Assembly: GCA_021555105.2 (NCBI GenBank)
Contig: CP134604.1
Coordinates: 3,324,501 to 3,388,500 of the forward strand
From: Thalassospiraceae bacterium LMO-JJ14
GTDB lineage: Bacteria > Pseudomonadota > Alphaproteobacteria > Rhodospirillales > Casp-alpha2
DNA: 64,000 bases
Direction: 5' to 3'
Made by a program: the position numbers and the translations under genes. Below, piece by piece: positions 30,155 to 48,098 of this stretch. The notes beneath the pieces are model-generated. The model searched no databases. It worked only from the letters and a program-made list of their open reading frames with translations, and had not been told where the DNA came from. The stretch's first letter is position 1, and each line of letters opens with the position of its first letter.

Positions 30155-31543
30155 ATGTACAACATCAATGACCCGTTCCGGTTTTCCGACCTTCCCATCT
30201 TCCGCGTGGCGGCGATCGTGGCATTGTTGTTATTGATGTCGATGCCCTCCGTCGCCAGCGACTTGAGCGGGCGGCTGATTATCGTCACGTCGTTCCCGGA
30301 GCACATGTTCGAAAGATTCATTTCAGCTTTCCAGTCACAACACCCGAAGTTGAAGACCTTTGTTCGATCGAAAAAGACCTCCGCCGCGATTTCTTTTATC
30401 CAGGAGAGGGAAAGCGATCCGGTAGACATCATCTGGGCATCGGCACCCGATGCCTTCGAAGTCCTTAAGAAATCCGGACACTTGGCGCAAGCGTTCCCCG
30501 CACCTCAGGGAGAAAATCACCGCATTGGCGGATATCCGTTGGACGACCTTGGCGGTTACTACCGCGGGTTCGCCGTATCAGGGTATGGGATCATGTGGAA
30601 TACGCCCTATCTAGAGCAATCGGGCCTTCCCGTGCCACGAACATGGGACGATCTGCGAAATCCGGTTTACGCGGGACACCTGGGAATCTCGGCGCCATCA
30701 CGCTCCGGCACCATGCACCTGATTATCGAGACAATCCTGCAAGGCAAGGGCTGGGATGATGGATGGGCTGCGCTGCTCGAGATTGGCGGCAATCTGGCAA
30801 CGGTGACAGCGAGAAGCTTCGGCGTTCTTGACGGAGTAAGGCGCGGACGTTTCGGCGCCGGTCCCGTGATTGATTTCTTCGGCCTGTCCGCGATTGCGAC
30901 CGGGGCGCCGGTCGGTTTCGTATACCCGGATGCGACGGTGTTCCTCCCCGCCAACATCGCCCTGGTCACAGGCGGCGAGAACCCCGAAGCAGCGAAGGCT
31001 TTTGTACAATTCATACTCTCGCCGGCAGGACAGGAGATCCTGCTTGAGCCCGAGATCAGCCGTCTCCCCGTTCTGCGCGATACTTACAAGAATGCGCGCC
31101 CCGGATTCCCCAACCCGTATGACGACGATCTGACCCGAAAAGGCATTCCCTTCAACACGGAACTTTCCAGAACTCGATACCACCTCGTCAACGCGTTGTT
31201 CGACGCGATGATCACATACCGCTTACGTGGGCTGACGCAGGCCTGGAACGCGCTGCACGAAGCCGAAGCAGCCTCGGCGAACGTGAGCGATGAAAACATT
31301 GCCCGTCGCCTTGCCGAGGCACGCCATCTGCTCACGCGTGTGCCCGTGAGCAGTCAGGAGGCATCGGACCTGAAGTTTGCGTCCGGTTTCGTTCACCGTC
31401 GGTCGGGCCTGCCTGTACCGTCACTCCAGGTCAAGCTGGAGGCCGAATGGGAACGCATGGTTCAAGGCAATCACGAGCAAGCGATCAAGCTATCGCGCGA
31501 AATCCTTGGTGTCGTGGAATCAACACCCGTGACGCGCCCATGA
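30155..31543 (+). CDS. PgtC-like periplasmic sensor binding protein
   Basis: This 462-residue protein has a signal peptide (about residues 15-35, ending SVAS) and an iron(III)/sugar-phosphate type binding fold with ASAPDAFEVLK, APSRSGT and GAGPVIDFFGL. It is strongly alike the transport binding protein at 35.1-36.4 kb through most of its length. Its stop overlaps the histidine kinase start (ATGA), the same order as Salmonella pgtC, pgtB, pgtA, where PgtC relays extracellular phosphoglycerate to the PgtB kinase. I infer that it senses the ligand rather than transporting it. The ligand is not proven. Confidence 0.78.
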   Translation: MYNINDPFRFSDLPIFRVAAIVALLLLMSMPSVASDLSGRLIIVTSFPEHMFERFISAFQSQHPKLKTFVRSKKTSAAISFIQERESDPVDIIWASAPDAFEVLKKSGHLAQAFPAPQGENHRIGGYPLDDLGGYYRGFAVSGYGIMWNTPYLEQSGLPVPRTWDDLRNPVYAGHLGISAPSRSGTMHLIIETILQGKGWDDGWAALLEIGGNLATVTARSFGVLDGVRRGRFGAGPVIDFFGLSAIATGAPVGFVYPDATVFLPANIALVTGGENPEAAKAFVQFILSPAGQEILLEPEISRLPVLRDTYKNARPGFPNPYDDDLTRKGIPFNTELSRTRYHLVNALFDAMITYRLRGLTQAWNALHEAEAASANVSDENIARRLAEARHLLTRVPVSSQEASDLKFASGFVHRRSGLPVPSLQVKLEAEWERMVQGNHEQAIKLSREILGVVESTPVTRP

Positions 31544-33474
31544 GTACGTTTCGTCTTGCCGGTATCCGTGGGCGACTGTTTCTTGCCTTCGGAAGTGTGA
31601 CGGCAATGACAGTCGCGGCGACGGTCGTTGCCTGGATTTCATTTGGCGGCGTAGGGGACAGCCTCAATCGATTGGTTACAGACAATATCCCGACAATCGT
31701 GCTGGCGGCACGCCTGGCGGAGAAAGGTGGCGTTATCAGCGCAACCGCACCTGCACTGGCGTCTGCTGAGAGCGAGCAGGCCCGCGAACGCGCATGGTCG
31801 ACACTGACCAGCAACCTGCAAAGCATGAACAGAATACTCAGTCAGGTAGAAGCGCCACTGATCGACGATGCCGCCAAAACGTCCTTGCACGGGATCATCG
31901 ATACGCTGCAGGCGAACCTGCGGTCACTGGGGACGAATGTCCGCCGGCGTTTCTGGTTCCAAGACCGCAATGCCGAACTTGTCGGTCGACTGCGCTGGGC
32001 ACATGCCGATTTTCTCGATGAAGTCGAACCCATGATTGCCGATGCCCGTTTCCGGATCGATATCGCTGTGGAACAAGCTTCCGAAGCAAACACGTCACCG
32101 GATCAGCAAAAGATTTTGCAGTTGGAGACGCGCCGCCAGACCGCGCTATTGCGTCTGAATGCAGCTGGCAACCTGGCCGTCGGCTTGATCGCCCGCGCCG
32201 CAAGTCTGCCCGATGAGTCATCTCTCAACGACACTGAACTTTTCCTCAGCGAGGTCCAAGGGAATATCAACAATGATATAGATGTGCTCGAAGCATTGCC
32301 CGAAGCTCTCTCACTGCGTCAGTCTCTGCAGGACGTCATGGCTTTTGCGTCCGGCGACGATGATCTGTTTCAGCTCCGTCGTGACGAGCTGAAGACGCTT
32401 TCCGACGGGCAGAAGTTGGTGGCAGCGAACCGGGATCTGGTTGAGCAACTGCAGGCGCTTATCACCAGACGTGTCGAAGCCGGCAACGTCACATCACAGG
32501 AAGCCGCGCGTCAGTCCGGTATTTCCATCGAGCGTGGAAAGTTCCTGCTTCTTGCCGCCGCCGGATTCAGCATTGTTGTGGCGATCCTCGTAGTATGGCT
32601 TTATGTCGGTCGCAATCTTGTGCGCCGGATTACATCTCTGGATCAATCGATGCGTGCCATAGCCGATGGCAAACTGAATACGCACGTCGTTACAGATGGC
32701 GATGACGAGATTTCAGATATGGCGACCTCATTACGAACATTCCGTGACACACTGGCCGAAACCCAGGCAGAACTCGTGCAGGCGGGAAAACTGGCGGCCC
32801 TGGGACAGCTGTCAGCAGGTGTCGCACACGAACTGAACCAGCCGCTCGCTGCCATTCGGTCCTATGCGCACAACGCCCATCGGCTAATGGAGAAAGGGAA
32901 CGCTGATGCGGCCACGGACACGATCGGGCGGATATCGAAACTCGTAGATCGAATGGCCGGCACAGTCGATCACCTCCGAAATCTTGCCCGACGCCCCTCG
33001 CCCGACATCGAGACCGTTAACCTCTCGAAGGTAACCAATGACGCGCTACAATTGATGGACAGCCGAATTCGTGACGCGGGGATCGACGTTGTGAACAGGC
33101 TCATGACGGATGCCATCCAGGTGCGCGCTGAAACCATCCGCCTGGAGCAGGTTCTCATCAACCTGATCGGCAACGCCATCGACGCAATGGAGGAACAACC
33201 GGTCAGACGACTTGTGATCTCAGCCGAGGAAAGTGGAAACACGGTCACGTTAATGCTGGAGGACAGCGGCGCCGGAATCGCGGAAGAGACACTCGAGAAG
33301 ATTTTCGAACCATTTTTCACGACCAAGGAACAAGGTCAGGGCGTCGGACTCGGGCTTGCTATCTCGTACAACATTATCAAGGATTTCGGGGGATCGGTAC
33401 GGGCCAGCAGCGCACGCGGCGGCCCGACCGTTTTCAGGATCGCACTCAACCGGGCCATGACGGACGAGGAATAA
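31540..33474 (+). CDS. PgtB-like sensor histidine kinase
   Basis: A 644-residue membrane kinase. First helix about residues 12-34, a periplasmic helical domain of some 300 residues, second helix about 333-357, HAMP about 357-410, then the phospho-accepting His430 in AHELNQPLAAIRSYAH, and an ATPase domain with N box NLIGNAIDAME, GAGIAEETLEKIFEPFFTTK and GVGLGLAIS. It should phosphorylate the response regulator encoded three bases later. Start ATG 31540 overlaps the pgtC-like stop; upstream in-frame residues belong to that gene. The DctB/PgtB-like kinase core fits a sigma-54 regulator partner. Confidence 0.88.
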   Translation: MSTFRLAGIRGRLFLAFGSVTAMTVAATVVAWISFGGVGDSLNRLVTDNIPTIVLAARLAEKGGVISATAPALASAESEQARERAWSTLTSNLQSMNRILSQVEAPLIDDAAKTSLHGIIDTLQANLRSLGTNVRRRFWFQDRNAELVGRLRWAHADFLDEVEPMIADARFRIDIAVEQASEANTSPDQQKILQLETRRQTALLRLNAAGNLAVGLIARAASLPDESSLNDTELFLSEVQGNINNDIDVLEALPEALSLRQSLQDVMAFASGDDDLFQLRRDELKTLSDGQKLVAANRDLVEQLQALITRRVEAGNVTSQEAARQSGISIERGKFLLLAAAGFSIVVAILVVWLYVGRNLVRRITSLDQSMRAIADGKLNTHVVTDGDDEISDMATSLRTFRDTLAETQAELVQAGKLAALGQLSAGVAHELNQPLAAIRSYAHNAHRLMEKGNADAATDTIGRISKLVDRMAGTVDHLRNLARRPSPDIETVNLSKVTNDALQLMDSRIRDAGIDVVNRLMTDAIQVRAETIRLEQVLINLIGNAIDAMEEQPVRRLVISAEESGNTVTLMLEDSGAGIAEETLEKIFEPFFTTKEQGQGVGLGLAISYNIIKDFGGSVRASSARGGPTVFRIALNRAMTDEE

Positions 33475-33477
33475 CCG

Positions 33478-34848
33478 ATGGGTATCAGCGAATGGGGCAA
33501 GGTCCTCTTCATCGACGACGAGGAAGATGTCCGGATTTCCGGTGCTCAGACACTGGAGATAGAGGGCTTCGAGGTGCTGACGCTGGATAACGCCCAGGCG
33601 GCGCTGGACGAACTGTCGGCCTCGTCCCCGGCGATGGTCGTCACCGACGTCAAAATGCCCGGGATGAACGGGATGGAACTGCTCAACCGTATCGTTGCCG
33701 TCGACCCCGATCTGCCTGTGGTCCTGATCACAGGACACGGCGATGTGCATCTTGCGGTCGAGGCGATACGTGCCGGCGCATACGACTTCATCGAGAAACC
33801 GGCCGATCCGGAACGTCTGATCGACGTCGTACGCCGTGCGCTGGAAAAACGTCGCCTGGTCATCGAGAACCGGAGTTTGCGCCTGGCGCACGATTCACAA
33901 GGAGAGATGGAACGCCGGATCATCGGCTCGACGCCGGTCATGGCCGAACTGCGACATACGATTGCCGATCTCGCGAATACGGACGTCGATGTACTGATTC
34001 ACGGTGAAACCGGGACAGGCAAGGAACTGGTGGCAAGGTGTCTGCACGATTTCGGCATGCGCCGCGACAGGCGGTTTGTCGCATTGAACTGCGGTGCGCT
34101 GCCCGACTCCGTTATCGAAAGTGAGTTGTTCGGCCACGAGGCCGGTGCCTTCACCGGCGCGAACAAACGACGGATCGGCAAGATCGAATATGCCGAAGGG
34201 GGTACTCTTTTCCTCGACGAGATCGAGAGCATGCCGCCCGCGGTACAGGTTCGTCTGTTGCGCGTTTTGCAGGAACGCACGATCGAGCGACTTGGCGGGA
34301 ACGATCCTATTGCCGTCGACATCCGCGTCATTACCGCCGCCAAACTGGATTTGCGTGAGGCTGCAAACGACGGGACGTTTCGCGAGGACTTGTACTACCG
34401 GCTTCATGTCGCCAGCGTGGATCTCCCCGCTTTGCGCGATCGACGTGAAGACATCCCCCTTCTATTCGGGCAATTCGCCGAGGCGGCAGGGGCACGATTC
34501 CACCGTCCGGTACCGGCCATCGACAGTACCAAAATAAACGAACTACTGTCTCGGTCATGGCCCGGCAACGTGCGCGAATTGAGAAATGCCGCGGAACGCT
34601 TTGTACTCGGGATGGCGGCATCGCAAGGGAACGGCCGTAACCCCGGCGGTCCGCACGCCGTCGGCGCAAGCGAAGCGAATACACTTGAGCAGCGTATGGC
34701 GGATTTTGAACGCGATACCATCAAGGTTGCACTGCGTGACAGCCAAGGACGCGTCGGCAAGGCGGCGGAAGCTCTGGGCATCCCCCGAAAACGGCTTTAC
34801 CTGCGCATGCAGAAGTACGGTTTGAATGCGGATGCGTTCAAGGCCTGA
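33478..34848 (+). CDS. PgtA-like NtrC-family response regulator
   Basis: The 456-residue protein has a receiver domain with Asp57 in VVTDVKMPGMNG, a sigma-54 AAA+ domain with Walker A GETGTGKE (176-183), the sigma-54 contact loop GAFTGA (223-228) and Walker B GGTLFLDEIE, and a C-terminal Fis-type helix-turn-helix (about 415-450). When phosphorylated it should activate a sigma-54 promoter, and one lies 126 bases beyond its stop codon. This is the strongest direct link between the sensor module and the ABC importer. Confidence 0.92.
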   Translation: MGISEWGKVLFIDDEEDVRISGAQTLEIEGFEVLTLDNAQAALDELSASSPAMVVTDVKMPGMNGMELLNRIVAVDPDLPVVLITGHGDVHLAVEAIRAGAYDFIEKPADPERLIDVVRRALEKRRLVIENRSLRLAHDSQGEMERRIIGSTPVMAELRHTIADLANTDVDVLIHGETGTGKELVARCLHDFGMRRDRRFVALNCGALPDSVIESELFGHEAGAFTGANKRRIGKIEYAEGGTLFLDEIESMPPAVQVRLLRVLQERTIERLGGNDPIAVDIRVITAAKLDLREAANDGTFREDLYYRLHVASVDLPALRDRREDIPLLFGQFAEAAGARFHRPVPAIDSTKINELLSRSWPGNVRELRNAAERFVLGMAASQGNGRNPGGPHAVGASEANTLEQRMADFERDTIKVALRDSQGRVGKAAEALGIPRKRLYLRMQKYGLNADAFKA

Positions 34849-34932
34849 ATGTGTCAAGCCTAACTCAATCCTTCCAAGACCTGGGTCACCAACGTCTCAA
34901 ATTCTCCTGATGCCGAAATTTTAAAACTCCCG

Positions 34933-34947
34933 GAAAGCCCTGCTTTC
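34933..34947. promoter_or_regulatory. perfect palindrome, candidate operator for the response regulator
   Basis: GAAAGC-CCT-GCTTTC is a perfect inverted repeat with a three-base centre, ending 27 bases upstream of the sigma-54 -24 element. NtrC-type activators bind such repeats, usually further upstream (80-150 bases), so the position is closer than normal. No second copy was seen in 34849-34975. Confidence 0.4.
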
Positions 34948-34973
34948 TATGGGTTTTCTCCATCTTCTCCGTG

Positions 34974-34990
34974 TTGGCACAGAGCTTGCT
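34974..34990 (+). promoter_or_regulatory. sigma-54 promoter of the ABC importer operon
   Basis: TTGGCACAGAGCTTGCT matches the consensus TGGCAC-N5-TTGC with GG at 34976-34977 and GC at 34988-34989, exactly 12 bases apart. Transcription would begin near 35001, about 50 bases before the binding-protein ATG. The upstream gene encodes a GAFTGA-bearing activator, which supports its use. Confidence 0.85.
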
Positions 34991-35051
34991 CTTACCAACG
35001 TCGATAGCCCGCTCGCATTAACGGGGCGGGATAATTGTTGGGAGAGAAACT

Positions 35052-36386
35052 ATGAGACGTTCTACTGCGTTCGGCACTGCCGCGCTTTTGATTACCCTAG
35101 CCTCCAGCCCGGCCTCGGCCCTCGAGGGCAGCCTGACGATCGTCACATCGTATCCGCCGGATACGACGACGACCTTCGAAGAAGCGTTCGAGAAAAAATA
35201 CCCCGGCGTCAATGTGGAGATGCTCAAAAAGAAAACCTCAGCCGGGATCAAGTACCTGCAAGAAACGGCAGGTAACAACAAGGCCGACATGTTCTGGGCG
35301 TCCGCGCCTGATGCTTTCGAAGTTCTCAAGAGCGACAACCTTCTGCAGAAGTACTCGGTGAAGGTCGGCGGCATTCCTGAAAAGGTGGGAGCCTTCCCGA
35401 TCAACGACCCGGACGGTTACTACAAGGGGTTTGCCGCATCGGGATACGGGATCATGTGGAATACCCGCTACATGAAGGCCAAGGACTTGCCTGCGCCGAA
35501 AGAATGGTCTGACCTCAAGAAAGCCGTCTATTTCGGTCACACCGGAATGAGCGCACCGTCACGTTCCGGGACCACGCACCTGACCGTCGAAACCCTTCTG
35601 CAGGGCCTCGGATGGGAAAAAGGCTGGGCCGAATGGAAGGCAATTGCCGGTAACTTCAAGACTGTCACCGAGCGCAGCTTCGGCGTACCGGACGGTGTCA
35701 ATTCCGGGGCTTTCGGTGCGGGGATCGTGATCGACTTCTTCGGTCTGTCGTCGCAGGCCTCTGGGTTCCCGGTCGAATTCGCCTATCCGACGGTAACGAC
35801 GCTGGTGCCCGCCAACATCGCGATCGTCAAGAACGCGCCGAACCAGGAAGCCGCAGCCGCATTCATCGAGTTTCTGCTCTCGACCGAAGGTCAGGAACTT
35901 CTTCTCGATCCGAAAATCCGCCGCCTGCCTGTTAACCCGGCGACTTATGCCAAGGCACCGGCAGACTTCCCGAACCCGTTCAAGGACAAGTCGATCGGCG
36001 CTGCTGTGAAGTTCGACCTGGATCTGTCGAAAAGCCGCTACAACGTGATCAACTCGCTTTTTGACGTGATGATCACGTACCGTCTCGACGATCTGGTTGC
36101 CGCCACCAAGGCCATCCAGAAAGCCGAAGCCAAACTCGCCGGCAACAACAATGCCGAGGCCGCCAAGCTGATTGCGGAAGCGCATGCACTCGTCAACGCC
36201 GTACCGGTTACCGCCGCACAAGCGAGTGAGAAGGACTTCAACAAGATCTTCAAGAAGAAACGGAAGAAGGCCGACACGAAGGTCACGGGCCGCCAGGCCG
36301 AGATCGAGCGTGAATGGGACACCGTTACCAAAGCGAATTACGAGAAGGCTAAGGAGTTGGCCGAGAAAGCAGTCTCCCTGCTGTAA
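35052..36386 (+). CDS. ABC transporter substrate-binding protein (phosphorylated compound or iron(III) type)
   Basis: A 444-residue periplasmic protein (signal peptide about 1-23, ending ASA). It has TIVTSYPPDTTTTFEEAF at the mature start, ASAPDAFEVLK, APSRSGTTHLTVET and GAGIVIDFFGLSSQASG. The fold family includes FbpA (iron), AfuA (hexose phosphates) and PgtC. The lysine/alanine-rich C-terminal extension of roughly 100 residues is shared with the PgtC-like sensor and absent from FbpA. The good ribosome-binding site GGGAGAGAAACT precedes ATG, and the gene is first behind the sigma-54 promoter. I infer an anionic phosphorylated ligand; iron is the alternative. Confidence 0.85.
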   Translation: MRRSTAFGTAALLITLASSPASALEGSLTIVTSYPPDTTTTFEEAFEKKYPGVNVEMLKKKTSAGIKYLQETAGNNKADMFWASAPDAFEVLKSDNLLQKYSVKVGGIPEKVGAFPINDPDGYYKGFAASGYGIMWNTRYMKAKDLPAPKEWSDLKKAVYFGHTGMSAPSRSGTTHLTVETLLQGLGWEKGWAEWKAIAGNFKTVTERSFGVPDGVNSGAFGAGIVIDFFGLSSQASGFPVEFAYPTVTTLVPANIAIVKNAPNQEAAAAFIEFLLSTEGQELLLDPKIRRLPVNPATYAKAPADFPNPFKDKSIGAAVKFDLDLSKSRYNVINSLFDVMITYRLDDLVAATKAIQKAEAKLAGNNNAEAAKLIAEAHALVNAVPVTAAQASEKDFNKIFKKKRKKADTKVTGRQAEIEREWDTVTKANYEKAKELAEKAVSLL

Positions 36387-36400
36387 CGATCTCCTACCTC

Positions 36401-36437
36401 GGGAGCCGCCTTCTGCGTCGGCGGCTCCCTACTTTTT
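36401..36437 (+). terminator. strong hairpin with T tract after the binding-protein gene
   Basis: A perfect 10-bp stem (36401-36410 with 36420-36429), a nine-base loop and five T residues at 36433-36437, between the binding-protein and permease genes. It has the form of an intrinsic terminator and probably lets only part of the transcripts continue, giving more binding protein than permease. Confidence 0.8.
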
Positions 36438-36466
36438 CTTCAATTCGTTTTATGGCGAGGCTGATC

Positions 36467-38185
36467 ATGGCTCTACCCCTCTCATCCGTACAACGGGGCC
36501 CCGCGGCTGCCGGCGTGCTGATCACGCTCTTCTTGCTGCTATTCCTTGTGGTGCCGGTTGCCAAGGTCGTCTTCGTGGCGTTCCAGGATCCTAATACCGG
36601 TGCGTTCACCCTCATCAACTTTGCCGATTTCTTCCGGAACTCGCTGTTTCAGGAATCGTTCTTTAACTCGTTTTACGTGTCTGCGATGTCGGTGCTTCTT
36701 TCGACGATCATCGCGATGCCACTCGCCTATTTCACGACGCGCTTCAACTTCGGCGGTGCGATACTCATTCAAACGCTTGGGGTGATCCCCTTGATCATGC
36801 CACCTTTTGTCGGCGCCGTTGCCATGCAGTTGCTGTTCGGCGCCAACGGGTCGGTCAACCTGCTTCTCGATGAACACCTTGGTATTACCATTCCGTTCAT
36901 GAGAGGTCTGAACGGCGTCATCCTGGTCGAAAGCATCCACTACTTTCCGTTTATCCTCATCAACCTGTCCGCAGCACTCAACAACATCGACCGCGCGATG
37001 GAAGAGTCAGCGCAGAACCTCGGCGCGAGCGGGCTTCGCTTGTTCCGCAGGATCGTATTCCCGCTTTCAATGCCCGGCTATGTCGCCGGCGCGGCGCTGG
37101 TCTTTATCAAGGTCTTCGACGATCTCGGCACGCCTTTATTGCTGAACGTTAACAACATGCTTGCGCCGCAGGCTTACCTCAGGGTGTCGTCGATCGGCAT
37201 ATCCGATCCCATGGGGTACGTCATTTCCGTGATCCTCGTCGGATTTTCACTGCTCTCACTCTGGGTGTCGTTGCTGGCCCTGAAAAACAAGGATTACGCA
37301 ACCGTGCAGAAAGGGGGCGGCGGACTAATGCGCCGTGACCTCAGAACATGGGAGAAGGTCGGCTGCTATGCGGTTGTGATCGTCATTCTGCTATTCGTGC
37401 TATCACCGCATTTCGGACTGGCCCTGCTTTCTTTCGGTACGGTGTGGTCCTACGCCGTCCTGCCGGATGCTTACACTTTCGATCACTACCGGGAGGTCTT
37501 CGGGAGTGCGTCGCAGTACATCTCGAATACACTGCTTTACGCCGGGATCGCCGCATTACTGGACGTCATCTTGGCAACGGGGATAGCCTACATCGTCTGG
37601 CGGACCAAGCTGATCGGCCGAAAGTGGCTCGATTACGTGGCCTCGGCGGCGTTGGCCGTGCCGGGTGTGGTTCTGGGTATAGGTTATCTGCGAACCTATC
37701 ACAGCTTCGACATTCCGATCATCGACGAGCCGCTGGCATCATGGTGGGTCATCATCGTCATCGCCATGACGATCCGCCGGCTGCCATATGCCCTGCGTGC
37801 ATGCGTTGCCGCCATTCAGCAAGTCAGCGTCATGCTTGAGGAAGCGGCGGAAAACCTGGGAGCTACAAAGGGCCGGACCGTCTGGCGCATTGTCATTCCC
37901 TTGATGTCAGGCGGAATCCTGGCCGGTTTCGTCACCAGCTTTGCAACCGCGTCGGTAGAGTTGTCGGCAACCATCATGCTGGTCGCCAAGAATTCCGATG
38001 CACCACTGGCGTTCGGCATTTACGAATTCATGCAATCGGCCGCAGGCCGTGGACCGGGTGCGGCGCTGGGGATCATCGCCGTTCTATTCGTCGGCATCGG
38101 CACTTACATCTCACATGTCATCATCGAGCGCAGCAATAAGGCGCGCGAGCAAAGCACCAACGTTGCGGAAGGAGCCGCCCAATGA
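36467..38185 (+). CDS. ABC transporter permease with two fused transmembrane domains (FbpB/AfuB-like)
   Basis: About 572 residues with two BPD-type permease halves. The cytoplasmic coupling loops are EESAQNLGASGLRLFRRIVFPL (about residues 183-204) and EEAAENLGATKGRTVWRIVIP (about 460-480); both contain the EAA motif. This doubled architecture is typical of the FbpB/AfuB group. ATG 36467 has GAGG six bases upstream; ATG 36452 would add five residues. The stop overlaps the ATPase start by four bases. Confidence 0.9.
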   Translation: MALPLSSVQRGPAAAGVLITLFLLLFLVVPVAKVVFVAFQDPNTGAFTLINFADFFRNSLFQESFFNSFYVSAMSVLLSTIIAMPLAYFTTRFNFGGAILIQTLGVIPLIMPPFVGAVAMQLLFGANGSVNLLLDEHLGITIPFMRGLNGVILVESIHYFPFILINLSAALNNIDRAMEESAQNLGASGLRLFRRIVFPLSMPGYVAGAALVFIKVFDDLGTPLLLNVNNMLAPQAYLRVSSIGISDPMGYVISVILVGFSLLSLWVSLLALKNKDYATVQKGGGGLMRRDLRTWEKVGCYAVVIVILLFVLSPHFGLALLSFGTVWSYAVLPDAYTFDHYREVFGSASQYISNTLLYAGIAALLDVILATGIAYIVWRTKLIGRKWLDYVASAALAVPGVVLGIGYLRTYHSFDIPIIDEPLASWWVIIVIAMTIRRLPYALRACVAAIQQVSVMLEEAAENLGATKGRTVWRIVIPLMSGGILAGFVTSFATASVELSATIMLVAKNSDAPLAFGIYEFMQSAAGRGPGAALGIIAVLFVGIGTYISHVIIERSNKAREQSTNVAEGAAQ

Positions 38186-39267
38186 ACCCGAACACTGGTA
38201 AATCCGCCGGCGTCGTCATCGAACAACTGAACCTATCGTTCGGCGATGTCCACGTTCTGAAAGGCGTCGACCTTTCTATCGAGTCTGGAGAGTTTTTTGC
38301 CTTCCTCGGGCCGTCCGGTTCCGGGAAATCAACGCTCCTGAGATGCATCGCCGGGTTCGGGCCGACGCCGACGGGGCGTATCCTGATCGATGACAACGAT
38401 GTCGCCGGACGTCCGCCATGGCAACGCGATGTCGGCATGGTTTTCCAAAGCTACGCGCTGTGGCCGCACATGACGGTACGCAAGAATGTCGCTTTCGGCC
38501 TCGAAGAGCGCCGGATAGCAGCATCGGAAATCCGCGACCGCGTCGATGCCGCGTTGGATCTCGTGGGGCTGCGGAACCTTGCGGAACGCCGGCCCTCGCA
38601 GCTTTCGGGCGGCCAGCAGCAACGCATCGCACTGGCGCGGACGATCGTCGTCGAACCCAAGGTCCTGCTTCTCGATGAACCGTTATCCAATCTGGATTCG
38701 AACCTGCGGGTTCAGATGCGTCGGGAAATCCGTGAACTTCAGCAGAAACTCAAACTGACGACAATCTTCGTTACCCATGACCAGGAGGAAGCGAATACCA
38801 CATGCGACCGAATGGCAGTGCTCGAAAATGGGGTCATCCAGCAGATCGGCTCGCCCGTGGAACTTTACGACAACCCCTCCAACCTGTTCGTCGCCAAGTT
38901 CCTGGGAACGGCAAACATCATCAACGGCACCATTCATGTATCGAACGGAGGGAAGGTCTTCCACACGTCATCCGGCGCGACAATACCGCTCGGCGACGAT
39001 GCAGGGGATGGACAATCCGTTGTCTTCCGGCCACAGAATGTCGACATCGTGGAGCCCGGTCACAAACCGAGCGGCGAGTGCGCCTCCATCTCAGGAACGG
39101 TTGAATACACCGAGTTTCTGGGTTCAACGGTGCGATATGGCGTCGATGTCGCAGGCGACATGATTATGGTCGACCATCCGCATCGCAGCAACGAACGTGT
39201 TTTCACTGGCGGCGACAAGGTCGATCTGATGATCGACCGGAAGAGCATTCTAGTGCTAGCGGCATAG
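38182..39267 (+). CDS. ABC transporter ATP-binding protein (FbpC/AfuC-like)
   Basis: The 361-residue protein has Walker A GPSGSGKST (about 39-47), Q loop MVFQSYALWPH, signature LSGGQQQR, Walker B VLLLDEPLSNLD, H loop THDQEE, and a C-terminal TOBE-type domain (about 240-361). It energises the importer. It overlaps the permease by four bases and is 15 bases ahead of pyruvate kinase, so the kinase is the last gene of the same operon. Confidence 0.92.
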   Translation: MNPNTGKSAGVVIEQLNLSFGDVHVLKGVDLSIESGEFFAFLGPSGSGKSTLLRCIAGFGPTPTGRILIDDNDVAGRPPWQRDVGMVFQSYALWPHMTVRKNVAFGLEERRIAASEIRDRVDAALDLVGLRNLAERRPSQLSGGQQQRIALARTIVVEPKVLLLDEPLSNLDSNLRVQMRREIRELQQKLKLTTIFVTHDQEEANTTCDRMAVLENGVIQQIGSPVELYDNPSNLFVAKFLGTANIINGTIHVSNGGKVFHTSSGATIPLGDDAGDGQSVVFRPQNVDIVEPGHKPSGECASISGTVEYTEFLGSTVRYGVDVAGDMIMVDHPHRSNERVFTGGDKVDLMIDRKSILVLAA

Positions 39268-39282
39268 CCGGAAAGATCGTCG

Positions 39283-40758
39283 ATGGATACACATTCACCC
39301 GGGCGTGAGGACGGTAAATCTCAGGTCAGTCGCAGAACGAAAATCGTTGCGACTCTGGGACCGTCCTCATCGTCACCTCAGATGATAGAGGCAATTTTCA
39401 AAGCCGGGGTCGAGGTTTTTCGTCTGAATTTCAGTCACGGTAGTCATGACGATCACGCCGAGCGCGTGGCGATTATCCGGGATCTTGAGAAATCCACGGG
39501 AAGGCTGACCTGTATTCTGGCCGACCTGCAGGGGCCCAAGTTCCGTATCGGCAATTTCATGAACGGTCGGGCAAAACTGGAACCGGGCGCATCGTTCCGT
39601 TTTGATTTGTCAGACGCTCCCGGCGATACCACTCGCGTCCAGTTGCCTCACCCCGAGATATTGAAAGTCGTGCAGCCAGGCCATCATGTTCTACTGGATG
39701 ATGGCAAGGTCCGGGTGCGAATAGAGGAGGCCGGCGCGGACTATGCACTCGGGCATGTGTTGGTCGGTGGCATTCTTTCAGATCACAAAGGCTTTAACGT
39801 CCCCGATACAAGTGTCGACGTCCCCGCGTTAACAGCCAAAGATAAAATTGATCTCGCTTTCGCATTGTCACTGGGTGTCGACTGGATTGCACTATCGTTT
39901 GTTCAGTCTGCGCAGGATGTTCAGCAAGCCAGGCTTCTTGTCGGCGACCGTGCCGGCATCATGGTGAAACTTGAAAAACCAAGTGCGGTACATGATCTGG
40001 CGAAGATTCTGGATGTTGCCGATGCTGTGATGATCGCACGTGGCGACCTGGGCGTGGAAATGTCGGCGGAAGAACTCCCCGCCATTCAGAAGCGCATCAT
40101 CATGGCGGCGCGGCAGATGGGGAAACCCGTGGTCGTCGCGACGCAAATGCTGGAATCAATGGTCAACGCCCCGGTTCCAACGCGCGCGGAAACGTCGGAC
40201 GTCGCGAACGCGGTATATGACGGAACCGATGCCGTGATGCTGTCCGCGGAAAGTGCTGCAGGCCAGTTCCCCCTTGAAGCCGTTCAGACCATGGCCCGTA
40301 TTCTTAAAATGGCGGAGCGCGATGCCTCCGGTTTTGCCATTGACCCGCTGCTTCTTGAGGATGCTGCCATGCGCCGGGCAGCAGTCGTAACACGCGCAGC
40401 CTGTGCATCCGCGACCGTGCTGCAGGCGGTGGGCCTGGTCACTTTCACGACATCCGGATCGACCACCCTGTGCGCCGCACGAGAGCGAGTGCCGCTTCGG
40501 CTGCTTTCGTTGTCACCCAGGCTCGAAACCGCGCGCCGCCTGGTGATTTGCTACGGGGTAACAAGCGTGAGCTGCCCAGACGCCCAGTCGTTCGGCGACA
40601 TGGTGGATATCAGCTGCAAGATGGCCACAAGCACAGGGATAGCAAAACCCGGCGACGAGCTCGCCATCATTGCCGGCGTGCCATTCGGCACACCAGGGAC
40701 GACGAATGTCATGCGCGTGTTTGTCGTGCCACCGGCAAAAGAGTCGAACAGGATTTAA
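39283..40758 (+). CDS. pyk: pyruvate kinase (first copy, TtuE-like)
   Basis: The 491-residue enzyme converts PEP and ADP to pyruvate and ATP. RRTKIVATLGPSSSS and RLNFSHGSHDDH mark the N-terminal barrel, MVKLEKP the catalytic lysine strand, ARGDLGVE the metal and phosphate site, and ATQMLESM follows. The C-terminal domain is complete. It carries a 16-residue N-terminal extension before RRTK. It is very like the copy at 41.5-43.0 kb; the two converge on either side of the phosphatase gene. Placed behind the ABC importer it suggests that the imported compound enters at the PEP level. Pyruvate kinases called TtuE occur in tartrate-use loci. Confidence 0.93.
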   Translation: MDTHSPGREDGKSQVSRRTKIVATLGPSSSSPQMIEAIFKAGVEVFRLNFSHGSHDDHAERVAIIRDLEKSTGRLTCILADLQGPKFRIGNFMNGRAKLEPGASFRFDLSDAPGDTTRVQLPHPEILKVVQPGHHVLLDDGKVRVRIEEAGADYALGHVLVGGILSDHKGFNVPDTSVDVPALTAKDKIDLAFALSLGVDWIALSFVQSAQDVQQARLLVGDRAGIMVKLEKPSAVHDLAKILDVADAVMIARGDLGVEMSAEELPAIQKRIIMAARQMGKPVVVATQMLESMVNAPVPTRAETSDVANAVYDGTDAVMLSAESAAGQFPLEAVQTMARILKMAERDASGFAIDPLLLEDAAMRRAAVVTRAACASATVLQAVGLVTFTTSGSTTLCAARERVPLRLLSLSPRLETARRLVICYGVTSVSCPDAQSFGDMVDISCKMATSTGIAKPGDELAIIAGVPFGTPGTTNVMRVFVVPPAKESNRI

Positions 40759-41411
40759 ATCCTTACACCCAGGCCCGCATCGCTGCAGCCGAATGCATGC
40801 AGCGCATCCGGGTCTGCAGCAAATGTTCTCGTCGTCCCGTTTTCGAGAAAATAGATCGTGGATTGCGGATCGTTACAGGCGAAGATTTCGTCTGTTCCCA
40901 TCCCGGCATAAATGCCACGCAGAACACGCCCCGAACCACCATGCGCCATCACGATGAGCGGCTGGTCCGCCGCACGCTCTTCCAGCCAGCGTCCTAAGCG
41001 GCTAGCAACGTCGGCGAAACTCTCACCGCCCTCCGGGATGGCAAACCCCCATCGGTCCTGGTGCTCGCGGGCCAGATCGTCCGCGTAACCCGCGGTGATA
41101 TCGTCTCGGGTCAGACCTTCCCATCGGCCGTAGTTCCTTTCTTTCAGCCGGTCGTCGAAGTGCACCGCCCCATAGGTCACGCCCAGCTCATCACAAAGGA
41201 TCGAGACCGATTGGCGGGTCCTTGCAAGCGGGCTCGCCCAGACTTGATACATGCTAAGATCGCCAAACTGCGCCTTAAGCGTCTCCGCCACTGCGCGTAC
41301 CTGACCAATGCCGGTTAGGCTCAGCGGAGAGTCCTGCTGTCCCTGGTATCGGCCCTCTCGGTTCCACTGTGTTTCGCCATGACGGAGCAGGAGCAAGTCT
41401 GGTGCCGGCAT
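40755..41411 (-). CDS. histidine phosphatase family protein (phosphoglycerate mutase-like)
   Basis: A 218-residue enzyme with the RHG motif LLLRHGETQWN (His near residue 9), the second conserved part LKERNYGRWEGLT, and VMAHGGSGRVLRG with the second catalytic histidine. Such proteins are either cofactor-dependent phosphoglycerate mutases or broad phosphatases; this length and the ERNYG pattern fit phosphatases better. Its stop overlaps the stop of the convergent pyk by three to four bases. ATG 41411 is chosen for the AGAG box upstream; 41420 is possible. It may act on a phosphoglycerate, which is inference. Confidence 0.82.
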   Translation of the reverse strand: MPAPDLLLLRHGETQWNREGRYQGQQDSPLSLTGIGQVRAVAETLKAQFGDLSMYQVWASPLARTRQSVSILCDELGVTYGAVHFDDRLKERNYGRWEGLTRDDITAGYADDLAREHQDRWGFAIPEGGESFADVASRLGRWLEERAADQPLIVMAHGGSGRVLRGIYAGMGTDEIFACNDPQSTIYFLENGTTRTFAADPDALHAFGCSDAGLGVRI

Positions 41412-41532
41412 GAGTTCCATCTCTCTTGATTTACTGGATACTTTGCGGGTTGGTTTAAGACGCTTATTCTCTCATTTGTAGACACCGGCTTCAAATCGAA
41501 CCAATGCGTCGGGAAAATTATTTGTACGCAAT

Positions 41533-42957
41533 TCAGCTCGACGGCACCTCGATTACCCGCATCACGTTCGTTGCGCCGGGCGTCCCAAACGGGACGCCGG
41601 CAATGATGACGACTTCGTCACCTGCCGCAGCTGCACCGACCTCAGCAGCCATCGCATAACTTATCACCACCATGTCGTCGAACGAGCTGGCATCGGGGCA
41701 ATTGACACTCATCGCGCCATAGCAGACGGCAAGTCTGCGTGCCGTTTCCAAAGACGGTGATAACGACAACACGGTGAGCGGCATGCGCTCCCGCGTTGCG
41801 CAAAGCGTGGTGGAGCCGGACGTCGTGAACGTCACCAGACAAGCAGCCTGCATTTCCGTTGCCGCATGGCATGCCGCCCGGGTGACGACGGCAGCACGCC
41901 GCGACTTCCTGTCCGCCAACAATACCGGCGGCATCTCAATGCAGCCGACATCCTTCTCTGCGCTGACAAGGATTTTGGCCATCATTCGCACGGCTTCCAG
42001 CGGATAACGTCCCGCAGCACTCTCGGCCGACAGCATCACCGCATCCGTACCATCATAAACGGCATTTGCAACGTCGGATGTCTCCGCGCGTGTCGGCACC
42101 GGTGTGTTGATCATGGATTCCAGCATCTGCGTCGCAATCACAACAGGCTTGCCTGCATGTCGCGCCGCCCTGACGATCCGTTTCTGAATGGCGGGGAGTT
42201 CCTCCGCCGGCATTTCCACCCCAAGATCGCCTCGTGCAACCATGACTGCATCAGCCGTGTCGATGATTTCGTCGAGTTCACGAATGGCACTCGGCTTCTC
42301 CAGCTTCACCATCAAGCCTGCCTTGTCGCCGATCAGCGTACGCGCATAGATCACATCCTGTGGTGACTGGACGAATGATAGCGCGACCCAGTCAACACCC
42401 AGTGACAATGCAAACGCCAAATCCTCCTCATCTTTGGGCGTCAATGAAGAGACGGCCACTTTCGTATCCGGTATGTTGAACCCTTTCCTGTCGGAGAGGG
42501 TGCCGCCGTTCACGACCCGGGCAATAACTTCGCCTTTCGACACATCTTCGACACATACACGGATCTTACCATCGTCCAGCAAAATAAAATGACCGGGCCG
42601 CAATGCATCGAGAACTTCCGGATGCGGCAAGTACACACGGCAGCCGTCCCCTGGCTTATCCGATGCGTCGAAACGAAACTCTTGATCAGGGCTGAGTATC
42701 ACTCGACCATTTTCAAACGTACCAATGCGGAACTTGGGTCCTTGCAGGTCGGCCAGCACGCAAGTGAGCCTGCCGGTTTTCTCTTCAAGTGTCCGGATTT
42801 CCTTGATGCGGGCGGCATGATCGGCATGAGTACCGTGACTGAAGTTAAGCCGAAACACGTCGGCACCCGCCTCGAATAACTTCTCGATCATATTCGGTGA
42901 GGAAGATGACGGACCTAAAGTCACGACAATTTTGGTGCGGCGGCAGAACCCCGGCAT
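41533..42957 (-). CDS. pyk: pyruvate kinase (second copy, TtuE-like)
   Basis: The 474-residue enzyme has the same motifs as the first copy (RRTKIVVTLGPSSSS, MVKLEKPSA, ARGDLGVEM, ATQMLESM) and ends near the same point, so the two are recent-looking paralogues. Its ATG overlaps the glycerate kinase stop (ATGA), so the two are coupled: 2-phosphoglycerate made by the kinase becomes PEP through enolase and then pyruvate here. A TtuD-TtuE style pair is known from tartrate use in Agrobacterium. Confidence 0.93.
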   Translation of the reverse strand: MPGFCRRTKIVVTLGPSSSSPNMIEKLFEAGADVFRLNFSHGTHADHAARIKEIRTLEEKTGRLTCVLADLQGPKFRIGTFENGRVILSPDQEFRFDASDKPGDGCRVYLPHPEVLDALRPGHFILLDDGKIRVCVEDVSKGEVIARVVNGGTLSDRKGFNIPDTKVAVSSLTPKDEEDLAFALSLGVDWVALSFVQSPQDVIYARTLIGDKAGLMVKLEKPSAIRELDEIIDTADAVMVARGDLGVEMPAEELPAIQKRIVRAARHAGKPVVIATQMLESMINTPVPTRAETSDVANAVYDGTDAVMLSAESAAGRYPLEAVRMMAKILVSAEKDVGCIEMPPVLLADRKSRRAAVVTRAACHAATEMQAACLVTFTTSGSTTLCATRERMPLTVLSLSPSLETARRLAVCYGAMSVNCPDASSFDDMVVISYAMAAEVGAAAAGDEVVIIAGVPFGTPGATNVMRVIEVPSS

Positions 42958-44252
42958 CAGCGCGGTCCTACTCCAGCGGTGAGCGCATCCTTAGGATCGA
43001 CAAGAATCGCCCGAAAATCGTTAACATTCGTCAACGTCGGCCCGGTTTTGATAAGATCGCCAAGCGAGTCGAAGAAGCTATAACCGTCATTTTCTTGCAG
43101 GAATGCCCGGGCAAACATTCCTTTCGAAAGAGCGCGCGAAATCGTCGTGGGATCAATACAGGCACCGGCATTGTCTTCGGTGCCGTCAATACCATCCGTA
43201 TCGCAGGCGAGAGCAAATATGCCCGGTCTGCCATCGAGTGCATTGGCTAGGGCCAGCAGAAATTCCGCGTTGCGACCGCCGCGGCCCTCACCGCGAACAG
43301 TCACCGTGGTTTCGCCGCCGCTCAGGATTACCGCCGGCACGGGAAAAGGCTGAGACCGTTCCGCGACCTGCGAGGCGATTGCGGCATGGGCCAACGCAAT
43401 GTCGCGCGCTTCGCCTTCCATTCGGTCACTCAGGATATATGCGTTCACACCGGCTGCTTCCGCGACATTGGCAGCAGCCTCAAGCGCTTCCTGCGGCGTT
43501 ACAATGACCTTCGTGGTCGCACGGGAAAGCTCAGGCGCTCCCGATTTAGGCGTTTCTGTGTCGCCAGACTGCAGACACCGAATTACATCTTCGCCGGGAT
43601 TGATCCCATACCGATCCAGAATTTCCAGTGCGTCGTCGCAAGTCGTTGGATCGGCAACGGTCGGTCCAGAGGCGATTACCGCCGGATCGTCACCGGGCAC
43701 ATCGGAAACAGCGAGTGTTACTGTTCTTGCCGGGTAAGCCCGCGTAGCAAGGCGCCCCCCCTTGACCGACGAAAGGTGTTTTCTTACACAGTTCATTTCG
43801 GAGATTGTCGCGCCGGATTTCAGCAAAGCACGTGTAACGGCACGTTTGTGCTCAAGCGTAATGCTCGGTGTCGGACATGTCATGAGTGCCGAGCCGCCAC
43901 CGGAGATAAGAGCAATTACCAAATCATCGGCGCCGAGCTCGTCGACACTTTCAAGGATCTGTTGCGTCGCCAAGAAGGCTGCATCGTCCGGCACCGGGTG
44001 CCCGGCTTCGACGACCTTTATGTCTCGGCATGGCACGGCGTGCGCGTAGCGCGTAATAACAAGCCCTTCCAATTTGCCAGGCCAATTTTGCTCAAGGGCG
44101 GCAGCCATCGCTGCCGCAGCCTTGCCTGCGCCGACGACAACTGTGCGGCCTTTCGGCGGCTCAGGTAAATACGTTGCCAGTTTCTCCCACGGTGACGCTG
44201 CACGCACAGCGGCGGTGAAAAGATCGAGTAGGAAATCCTTAGGTTCAGGCAT
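42957..44252 (-). CDS. glycerate 2-kinase, MOFRL family (GckA/TtuD-like)
   Basis: A 431-residue enzyme: N-terminal DUF4147 part with VVVGAGKAAAAMAAALEQ near residue 40, and a C-terminal MOFRL domain with GEGRGGRNAEFLLALA and CDTDGIDGTEDNAGACID. It phosphorylates D-glycerate to 2-phosphoglycerate. ATG 44252 gives the family start; codons further upstream lie in the terminator region. An intrinsic terminator ends only about 12 bases before the ATG and no strong ribosome-binding site is visible (GGA eight bases ahead), so expression may depend on read-through. Older annotation calls TtuD a hydroxypyruvate reductase. Confidence 0.92.
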   Translation of the reverse strand: MPEPKDFLLDLFTAAVRAASPWEKLATYLPEPPKGRTVVVGAGKAAAAMAAALEQNWPGKLEGLVITRYAHAVPCRDIKVVEAGHPVPDDAAFLATQQILESVDELGADDLVIALISGGGSALMTCPTPSITLEHKRAVTRALLKSGATISEMNCVRKHLSSVKGGRLATRAYPARTVTLAVSDVPGDDPAVIASGPTVADPTTCDDALEILDRYGINPGEDVIRCLQSGDTETPKSGAPELSRATTKVIVTPQEALEAAANVAEAAGVNAYILSDRMEGEARDIALAHAAIASQVAERSQPFPVPAVILSGGETTVTVRGEGRGGRNAEFLLALANALDGRPGIFALACDTDGIDGTEDNAGACIDPTTISRALSKGMFARAFLQENDGYSFFDSLGDLIKTGPTLTNVNDFRAILVDPKDALTAGVGPR

Positions 44253-44263
44253 TATGTGATTCC

Positions 44264-44315
44264 AAAAAAAAGCGGTGTCCCGGCTTGACCCGGGGGGATC
44301 TGCACCGGGACACCG
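44264..44315 (-). terminator. intrinsic terminator between glxR and glycerate kinase
   Basis: Perfect 11-bp inverted repeat, 44305-44315 with 44273-44283, with a loop of about 21 bases, followed on the minus strand by eight T residues (44264-44271). It terminates or attenuates transcripts from gcl-hyi-glxR just before the glycerate kinase ATG. Confidence 0.8.
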
Positions 44316-44345
44316 ACAGGCCAGGGAGAACATCGGCCTGGGAGA

Positions 44346-45257
44346 TTACTCTGCTGCGTCCGCCTTGGGGGCCGGCCCTGCAATAGGGTGATTTGCCATG
44401 AGCTCCAGGGCACGAACCATCCCTGAATGATCCCATGAAGCCCCACCATTAGCCGCACAAGCGTTGAACAGTTCCTGTGCCGTCGCCGTGTTGGGTAGAC
44501 TGAGACCGAGGGCCTTCGCACCCTGCAGCGCGAGGTTCAGATCCTTCTGGTGCAACTCGATCCGAAAGCCGGGATCGAATGTCCGATTAACCATACGCTC
44601 CCCGTGGATCTCGAGAATCTTTGAAGATGCGAAACCACCCATAAGCGCCTCGCGAACACGCGCGGGGTCGGCGCCTGCCTTTGACGCGAACAACAGCGCT
44701 TCACCGACGGCCTCGATATTCAAAGCAACGATAATCTGGTTCGCGACCTTGCATGTTTGTCCATCGCCGTTGCCGCCGACTAGGGTAATGTTTTTGCCCA
44801 TGGTATCGAACAATGGCTTGGCCTTTTCGAAGGCCTTCTCCGGACCGCCCACCATGATCGTCAGCGTCCCGGCCAAGGCGCCCACCTCGCCACCCGAGAC
44901 CGGCGCATCGAGGTAATCGCAGCCGAGGTCGTTGACCCGTTTGGCAAACGCCTTCGTCTCGATCGGCGAGATCGAACTCATGTCGATGACGAGCTTGCCC
45001 GCACCAAGACCCTCGGCAACACCATTTTCTCCGAACAGAACGTCGGCCACATGAGGTGTATCCGGGACCATAATGATGACGACATCCGCCGCTTCCGCAG
45101 CGGCCTTACCATTAGGCACGGTCACACCGCCTTTGGCGACAAGCGTTTCCGGCACATCGGGTTTGCTATGCAGGTAAAGCTCATGGCCCGCGTCAATCAA
45201 ATGAGCCGCCATGGGGGCGCCCATGATCCCCAGTCCAATGAATGCAATCTTGGTCAT
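44346..45257 (-). CDS. glxR: 2-hydroxy-3-oxopropionate (tartronate semialdehyde) reductase
   Basis: The 303-residue beta-hydroxyacid dehydrogenase has the dinucleotide motif GLGIMGAPMAAHL (residues 7-19), the substrate motif DAPVSGGEVGALAGTL (about 119-134) and the catalytic lysine in DGQTCKVANQI (about 170). It reduces tartronate semialdehyde to D-glycerate. Its neighbours hyi and gcl make the substrate assignment strong. The gene lies 35 bases after hyi and before the terminator. GarR is the near-identical alternative name. Confidence 0.92.
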   Translation of the reverse strand: MTKIAFIGLGIMGAPMAAHLIDAGHELYLHSKPDVPETLVAKGGVTVPNGKAAAEAADVVIIMVPDTPHVADVLFGENGVAEGLGAGKLVIDMSSISPIETKAFAKRVNDLGCDYLDAPVSGGEVGALAGTLTIMVGGPEKAFEKAKPLFDTMGKNITLVGGNGDGQTCKVANQIIVALNIEAVGEALLFASKAGADPARVREALMGGFASSKILEIHGERMVNRTFDPGFRIELHQKDLNLALQGAKALGLSLPNTATAQELFNACAANGGASWDHSGMVRALELMANHPIAGPAPKADAAE

Positions 45258-45292
45258 ATCTTCCTCTCTCTAAATGTGGGAATGCGTACCGT

Positions 45293-46075
45293 TCAGGCAG
45301 CTGTTGCCGAGGCAAGCCAGCCGAGGCCCTCGCGTGTGTCTCCGGCGGGTTTGTATTCACACCCGATCCAACCGTCGTATCCCAGCTCGTCGATATAGTT
45401 GAACAGGAAGCCGTAGTTAATCTCGCCCGTCCCCGGCTCGTGCCGGCCCGGTGTATCTGCGAGCTGGATATGCTTGATCACGTCGAGGTTGTCGCGAATG
45501 GTCGGCGCCAAATCCCCTTCCATGATTTGCATGTGGTAGATGTCGTACTGGATGAACAGATTGTCCGCCCCGACTTCATCAAGGTACGCGCGCGCCTGAC
45601 TCGTGGCGTTGAGAAAGAACCCCGGAATGTCCCTGGTATTGATCGGCTCGATCAGCAGGCAGATGCCGGCTTCCTTCAACTTCATGGCCGCATACTTCAG
45701 ATTCGAGACAAAAGTCGCGTGTGCGACGTCGGGGTCCGCGTCTTCCGGCAGCACCCCGGCAAGGCAGTTCAGTTGCGTGCAACCCAGTGCCGTTGCATAC
45801 CTGATCGCTTCGTGAACGCCTTGGTGAAATTCCTCGACCCGGCCAGGATGACAGGCGATGCCTCTTTCGCCGGCGTCCCAGTCGCCAGCCGGCAGATTAT
45901 GCAGCACCTGCTGCAGGCCGAACGCCTGTAGACGACTGGCCAGAACGTCTGGGTCGTAGGCATACGGAAAAAGATACTCCACGCCCCTGAACCCGGCTTC
46001 CGAGGCGGCCTCGAAGCGGTCCAGAAAATCAAGTTCCCCGAATAACATTGAAAGGTTTGCCGCGAATCTAGGCAT
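45293..46075 (-). CDS. hyi: hydroxypyruvate isomerase
   Basis: A 260-residue TIM-barrel enzyme of the sugar-phosphate isomerase/epimerase family. Its opening MPRFAANLSMLFGELDFLDR followed by GFRGVEYLFPY closely tracks E. coli Hyi, and INTRDIPGF lies near residue 150. It interconverts hydroxypyruvate and tartronate semialdehyde. ATG 46075 is preceded by AGGAGAG, which decides against the slightly longer frame. It lies between gcl and glxR. Confidence 0.93.
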   Translation of the reverse strand: MPRFAANLSMLFGELDFLDRFEAASEAGFRGVEYLFPYAYDPDVLASRLQAFGLQQVLHNLPAGDWDAGERGIACHPGRVEEFHQGVHEAIRYATALGCTQLNCLAGVLPEDADPDVAHATFVSNLKYAAMKLKEAGICLLIEPINTRDIPGFFLNATSQARAYLDEVGADNLFIQYDIYHMQIMEGDLAPTIRDNLDVIKHIQLADTPGRHEPGTGEINYGFLFNYIDELGYDGWIGCEYKPAGDTREGLGWLASATAA

Positions 46076-46111
46076 TGGTCTCTCCTGTATCATAGTGCTT
46101 TTGTACGTGTG

Positions 46112-47881: not shown

Positions 47882-48098
47882 CACACACTCCGTCATCTGC
47901 TGTCGTTGAACGATGACAACATTTCACAGTCGGAGCATTGAGTCTATTATTTTAAAACTAATTCCGTATCGTGAGATGATCTATTAATTTTCTTATTATT
48001 CAACATGTTATTAGTTTTTACATTATTGACTTAAAATCATAACTCATAATCCCAACAGGCATCTGGGGACACAATAGCACTCATGTTTTAAGCCAACG
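47882..48098 (-). promoter_or_regulatory. AT-rich gcl promoter region
   Basis: 217 bases, markedly AT-rich compared with the flanks, between the IclR gene and gcl on the same strand. It must contain the gcl promoter and is the likely target of the IclR protein encoded upstream; I could not define a palindromic operator with confidence. Confidence 0.5.

Follow-up and report, generated by a model that had tools for sequence, protein, structure and literature searches.

A stretch of 64,000 nucleotides from Thalassospiraceae bacterium LMO-JJ14 (contig CP134604.1, positions 3,324,501 to 3,388,500), referred to below as the window, probably encodes a variant of the Pgt system with an ATP-binding cassette (ABC) carrier, that is, an inducible ABC import of phosphoglycerate or phosphoenolpyruvate (PEP) that feeds pyruvate kinase. 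Enteric bacteria are already known to take up these compounds through the PgtP antiporter, whose cargo comprises 2- and 3-phosphoglycerate and PEP (PMC10715179). In Salmonella, 3-phosphoglycerate is sensed by PgtC, PgtB phosphorylates PgtA, and pgtP is activated by PgtA (PMC11077982). No paper naming an ABC importer for phosphoglycerate or PEP was found in the literature searched. If the proposal is true, there is a binding-protein-dependent ABC route in many alpha- and gammaproteobacteria, encoded by genes that are now labelled as iron transport or anonymous solute transport. A first-pass annotation of this DNA, which had proposed a PgtCBA-like sensing module joined to a sigma-54-driven ABC importer and a pyruvate kinase, is confirmed in what it observed and supported in large part, though not throughout, in its interpretation. 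The features concerned are as follows (window coordinates; basis of assignment in brackets):

30155..31543, + strand: SBP1, PgtC-like sensory periplasmic binding protein, 462 aa (homology to PgtC, side of the tree, predicted fold)
31537..33474, + strand: HK, PgtB-like sensor kinase with TorS-type sensor, HAMP, HisKA and HATPase (NF047794)
33478..34848, + strand: RR, PgtA-like NtrC-type activator with intact GAFTGA, Walker A and Walker B (NF047793; motifs on alignment)
34975..34990, + strand: putative sigma-54 (-24/-12) promoter box TGGCACAGAGCTTGCT (single pattern match in the window)
35052..36386, + strand: SBP2, the importer's transport binding protein, 444 aa (likeness to SBP1, transport clade, predicted fold)
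36401..36429, + strand: RNA hairpin in the gap from SBP2 to permease, with a U-rich tract behind it (folding energy)
36452..38185, + strand: fused two-domain ABC permease (BPD_transp_1, two stretches)
38182..39267, + strand: ABC ATPase with a TOBE_2 domain (ABC_tran, TOBE_2)
39283..40758, + strand: Pyk1, pyruvate kinase (TIGR01064, 472 bits)

The gene set proposed by the first-pass annotation was thus recovered with its order, strand and coordinates: SBP1, HK and RR, then the sigma-54 box, then SBP2, permease, ATPase and pyk, the two binding proteins being 48% identical. The ATG of HK overlaps the stop codon of SBP1 by 7 nt, the ATPase gene overlaps the permease gene by 4 nt, and pyk1 lies 15 nt behind the ATPase gene. 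The PgtCBA order is contiguous with start and stop codons touching, and likewise in the E. coli and Salmonella records.

The likeness of the upstream half to PgtCBA, also claimed at first pass, stands. The annotated PgtC of E. coli and Salmonella aligns with SBP1 at 30% identity across 94% of its length, and both the sensor half and the kinase half of HK match the PgtB profile NF047794. HK is the best of 40 kinase matches of this profile in the genome, and it alone among the matches listed has an N-terminal sensor half matching PgtB (model residues 7-399, E 2e-19). The scores are below the equivalog cut-offs, with 212 bits for HK (cut-off 1000) and 315 bits for RR against the PgtA profile NF047793 (cut-off 650), and the window module should therefore be regarded as a relative of PgtCBA and not as the enteric equivalog. 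RR scores 410 bits against NtrC and is nearer to general NtrC than to PgtA, in line with its intact AAA+ domain. Shared with the Pgt system of Salmonella and E. coli are the C-B-A order with overlaps, a PgtC-type binding protein with a helical extension, a TorS-like sensor kinase, and an NtrC-like regulator with a Fis-type helix-turn-helix. The window differs in that the PgtP antiporter is replaced by an ABC importer that has a binding protein of its own, the second in the cluster and dedicated to transport, and in that it has a sigma-54-type promoter and an activator that keeps GAFTGA. TorT-TorS and similar binding-protein-assisted kinases also combine a periplasmic binding protein with a TorS-type sensor domain, but the binding protein is of another family there, while the output in the window is a sigma-54 activator.

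To place the window among its relatives, SBP2 homologs were scanned with an SBP2-only alignment, and tblastn with a set of named reference proteins served to label the loci. It should be noted that the locus counts given here depend on fetching and include related species, that they are not frequencies in nature, and that some contigs end early. SBP2 relatives are widespread, one scan giving 539 or more matching places, and matches at E < 1e-60 are present in 14 of 385 genomes of the class. A permease adjoining SBP2 is conserved throughout the family in the sampled loci. The gene-neighbourhood check suggested at first pass, for PgtCBA together with the ABC importer, was run and returned the set at 30 loci, the window counted; the other PgtCBA modules stand with PgtP (26 loci) or with neither carrier (21), and none with both. 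The complete PgtCBA-ABC set occurs in Azospirillum, Paracoccus, Chelatococcus, Pseudochrobactrum, Maritalea, Aminobacter, Vibrio, Grimontia, Motiliproteus and others. Since sensor module and ABC importer occur together at 29 other sampled loci, the arrangement is not due to chance; nor is it confined to the window genome, a point on which the first-pass reading needs correcting. No PgtP ortholog was found in the window genome, where the best match has 22-28% identity (E 4e-7).

Two further groups of loci were seen in the sample. SBP2-type importers lacking the sensor (L092-L171), which are mostly without a sigma-54 box and have an unchanged binding signature, extend to bins of Thermodesulfobacteriota. 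The other group (L202, L205, L210, L212-L229), gammaproteobacterial and probably of Vibrionaceae, has PgtCBA modules of a second type, next to which both the ABC importer and PgtP are missing; among the neighbours are a nucleoside transporter, a CbiM-like protein or a distant protein of the major facilitator superfamily.

The sigma-54 box lies 61 nt before the SBP2 start codon, and the pattern TGGCAYRNNNNTTGCW has one match on both strands of the 64-kb window, where 0.06 are expected (mean of 100 shuffles). The genome carries one copy of rpoN, scoring above the curated cut-off. With a -24/-12 box, a GAFTGA activator and RpoN all present, the window operon is predicted to be RpoN-dependent. In the sampled loci, a box was called before SBP2 at a score of at least 13.5 of 15.5, which random 300-nt stretches from the same loci reach in 2.6% of cases. 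Such a box is present at 21 of the 28 loci with the module, or at least RR, upstream and at 3 of the 78 ABC loci without (Fisher p 2e-13), with the p values overstating the case because the gammaproteobacterial loss described below may be a single event. One of the three boxed loci without the module (L081) is from Aminobacter, another record of which carries it. Of the 30 module-bearing ABC loci, 28 encode GAFTGA or a near variant, and none of the loci with PgtP or with neither carrier does; correspondingly, the box is present at 24 of 28 loci with GAFTGA and at 0 of 29 without. In the two ABC exceptions, both Paracoccus and with P. denitrificans among them, the GAFTGA loop and the box have been lost together, which represents at least one event separate from the gammaproteobacterial loss. 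All sampled gammaproteobacterial PgtA proteins paired with PgtP (L085-L088, L173-L229), that of Salmonella included, are without GAFTGA, and most PgtA proteins of enterics and vibrios also have Arg in place of the Walker A Lys and no longer have the Walker B Asp-Glu. A sigma-54 box before pgtP was looked for in the sampled loci and not found. Of all the findings, this joint decay of GAFTGA and sigma-54 box was the one least expected.

Consequently, the comparison with Salmonella drawn in the first-pass annotation holds for the sensor module, which is related, and fails at the promoter, because the sampled Salmonella-type PgtA has lost GAFTGA and no box was found before pgtP. A contact between sigma-54 and part of Salmonella PgtA was put forward in a study of 2024 (PMC11077982). 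The joint loss of GAFTGA and box calls this suggestion into question, and the sequences make such a contact doubtful. On balance, we slightly favour a scheme in which the PgtCBA sensor is coupled either to an ABC importer via sigma-54 or to PgtP without sigma-54, the switch having accompanied the loss of GAFTGA and the decay of the Walker motifs; given that loss and decay, Salmonella PgtA would be a sigma-54-independent relic of a window-like activator.

Both binding proteins have confident predicted structures (pLDDT 88.9 for SBP1 and 85.4 for SBP2), and the nearest folds in the PDB are VcA0625 (glucose 6-phosphate), AfuA (glucose 6-phosphate, fructose 6-phosphate and sedoheptulose 7-phosphate) and P5PA (pyridoxal phosphate). 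Pocket residues were compared via sequence alignments, not superposed coordinates. SBP1, SBP2 and enteric PgtC have in common P169, R171, S172, T174, H176, R208, S209, G211, I227, D228 and R329, with single exceptions such as Gln for H176 in one PgtC. Their signature can be summarized as SRSxTxH / RSxG / ID plus a helical C-terminal extension of about 130 residues, which the 321-residue AfuA does not have. AfuA Thr150, a phosphate contact, is kept as T174 and AfuA Asp206 as D228, while His205 has become Ile and Glu229 a hydrophobic residue, so that two of the three sugar-motif residues are replaced; in addition, AfuA has no aligned Arg at the positions of Arg171 and Arg208. Since Thr174 is kept, the AfuA sugar residues are replaced and two Arg are added, a small phosphorylated acid would fit better than a hexose phosphate, and we infer from these residues a ligand that carries both phosphate and carboxylate.

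In a quick maximum-likelihood tree of the binding proteins, for which the program warns of long branches, the transport binding proteins form one clade (SH-aLRT 100) with the sensors and PgtC outside it. SBP1 falls on the sensor/PgtC side, within which the tree does not resolve the exact joining point of PgtC among the sensors. This topology fits an old duplication that would have given one sensing and one transporting copy. An orphan, diverged member of the family without the T174/H176 signature was noticed in Azospirillum argentinense (L089, 8007-9293), adjoining di-heme oxidoreductase and TonB-receptor genes.

For the window system we infer as follows what is bound, which way the signal runs and how the cargo reaches pyruvate. 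SBP1 would bind an external small phosphorylated acid in the periplasm, most likely 3- or 2-phosphoglycerate or PEP, and in its ligand-bound form would engage the PgtB-like kinase HK. HK would then phosphorylate the NtrC-type RR, which would act on sigma-54 RNA polymerase at the box at 34975-34990 and thereby switch on SBP2, permease, ATPase and pyk. SBP2 would hand the ligand of SBP1 to the permease–ATPase importer, and the cargo would join lower glycolysis at or above PEP, with Pyk1 yielding pyruvate and ATP. A common sensor with swapped carriers makes this substrate prediction testable.

The link between importer and pyruvate kinase seen at first pass is real, but it is far stronger for loci of the PgtP type, 21 of 26 of which have pyk beside PgtP, than for those of the ABC type. 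Pgt systems of Vibrionaceae and relatives, for example, resemble the window in being often linked to pyk. Beside the ABC importer, pyk occurs at 2 of 30 loci with the module (the window and Pseudochrobactrum, where a histidine phosphatase gene lies between importer and pyk) and at 1 of 91 without; it was looked for as a general feature of ABC-type loci and not found to be one. Histidine phosphatase genes are found at 9 of 30 ABC loci with the module and at 1 of 91 without (Fisher p 1e-5). Pyk1 is 70% identical to the second pyruvate kinase of the window, Pyk2, and only 36-48% to the pyruvate kinases of other Pgt loci; it was therefore recruited locally. The pyk genes beside PgtP and those at the window and Pseudochrobactrum ABC loci stem from separate pyk lineages, and the ABC loci recruited theirs separately. 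The features next to pyk1 are as follows:

40755..41420, - strand: histidine phosphatase superfamily protein, phosphoglycerate mutase/phosphatase type (PF00300)
41533..42957, - strand: Pyk2, second pyruvate kinase, at the end of the adjacent glycerate cluster (TIGR01064, 494 bits)
42957..44333, - strand: glycerate 2-kinase, MOFRL type (NF041176, below cut-off; PF13660, PF05161)

The latter two belong to a minus-strand glyoxylate-to-pyruvate gene set (41533-47896), which runs towards the Pgt-ABC operon and also encodes tartronate semialdehyde reductase-like, hydroxypyruvate isomerase-like and glyoxylate carboligase-like proteins, these three labels coming from reading of the sequence and not from profiles. 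The glycerate set and the Pgt-ABC operon meet at 2-phosphoglycerate/PEP.

Several observations weigh against phosphoglycerate or PEP import that ends in pyruvate. A sensor module is missing from the neighbourhood of 91 of the 121 sampled ABC loci, and the nearest sampled relatives that do have the module (L054, L056, L092, L094, L096) are without pyk, in keeping with its rarity at ABC loci. In place of pyk, a gene for a histidine phosphatase or a gph-like HAD is present at several ABC loci, and such an enzyme would be suited to any phosphate ester. HK and RR fall far short of the PgtB and PgtA profile cut-offs, and a measured ligand for any SBP1 or SBP2 of the family was not found in the literature searched. 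The cargo could be another small phosphorylated compound that loses its phosphate in the cytosol, with 2-phosphoglycolate as the foremost candidate and phospholactate, glycerol phosphate or triose phosphates as further ones; the commonest genes behind the ATPase elsewhere encode histidine phosphatases and gph-type (phosphoglycolate phosphatase-like) HADs, and the window adjoins the glyoxylate-to-glycerate gene set. We consider this unlikely, however, since the window operon is without gph, since the pyk in that operon and the pyk beside PgtP both point to phosphoglycerate or PEP, and since the binding signature is that of PgtC, which in Salmonella responds to 3-phosphoglycerate (PMC11077982). 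There is a somewhat greater chance, though still a minor one, that Pyk1 arose as a side effect of local duplication in the adjacent glycerate cluster and is functionally unconnected with the importer. Its identity to Pyk2, 0.8 kb off on the opposite strand, would agree with this, as would the lack of pyk in the ABC operon of any sampled near relative; however, Pyk1 lies directly behind the ATPase gene on the importer's strand, and Pgt loci have acquired unrelated pyk genes elsewhere, in Pseudochrobactrum and Gammaproteobacteria at the least.

The importer itself may be compared with several known systems. The first-pass suggestion that an Afu/Fbp-type importer replaces PgtP is right in that an ABC importer stands where PgtP stands elsewhere, but by its own motif it is not AfuABC: for AfuA His205/Asp206/Glu229, the window binding proteins have Ile, Asp and a hydrophobic residue. 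AfuABC of A. pleuropneumoniae and C. rodentium and VcA0625 have the closest solved folds and likewise combine a class II binding protein with ABC import of phosphate esters, and P5PA, from a pyridoxal-phosphate importer of Actinobacillus, shares the fold family and the phosphate-ester class of ligand. An AfuABC-type importer of hexose or heptose phosphates, to which these structures would point, is nevertheless very improbable, with two motif residues replaced, extra Arg, identity of about 22% and the C-terminal extension absent from AfuA; the window also has a dedicated sigma-54 two-component control. P5PA is about 22% identical to the window proteins as well, with a chain of 355 aa against 444-462 aa. 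Least credible of all is a ferric iron importer of the Fbp/Fut type, implied by the public label 'iron ABC transporter permease'. The structural superfamily is shared, and relatives in Azospirillum, Paracoccus, Aminobacter and others are annotated in this way; however, the two iron-binding tyrosines of VmFbpA correspond in the alignment to Phe229-Phe230 in SBP2 and to Phe-Phe in SBP1, and the linked genes encode phosphatases, pyruvate kinase and a PgtC/B-type sensor, not iron functions. An FbpA-type tyrosine site, which the first-pass annotation had named as evidence that would count against its proposal, is accordingly absent. Finally, among NCBIfam models, those of the putative 2-aminoethylphosphonate importer PhnS2T2U2 (TIGR03261/3262/3265) score best with the two binding proteins, the permease and the ATPase, but the scores are far under the curated cut-offs (for SBP2, 120 bits against 393) and no phosphonate genes were seen nearby; an aminoethylphosphonate importer (PhnSTUV or PhnS2T2U2) was rejected, as all curated equivalog scores are below cut-off.

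In addition, the hairpin between SBP2 and the permease has a stem of 10 bp and a folding energy of -23.3 kcal/mol (z -3.57). It possibly acts in attenuation or mRNA stability, and may lower permease expression relative to SBP2.

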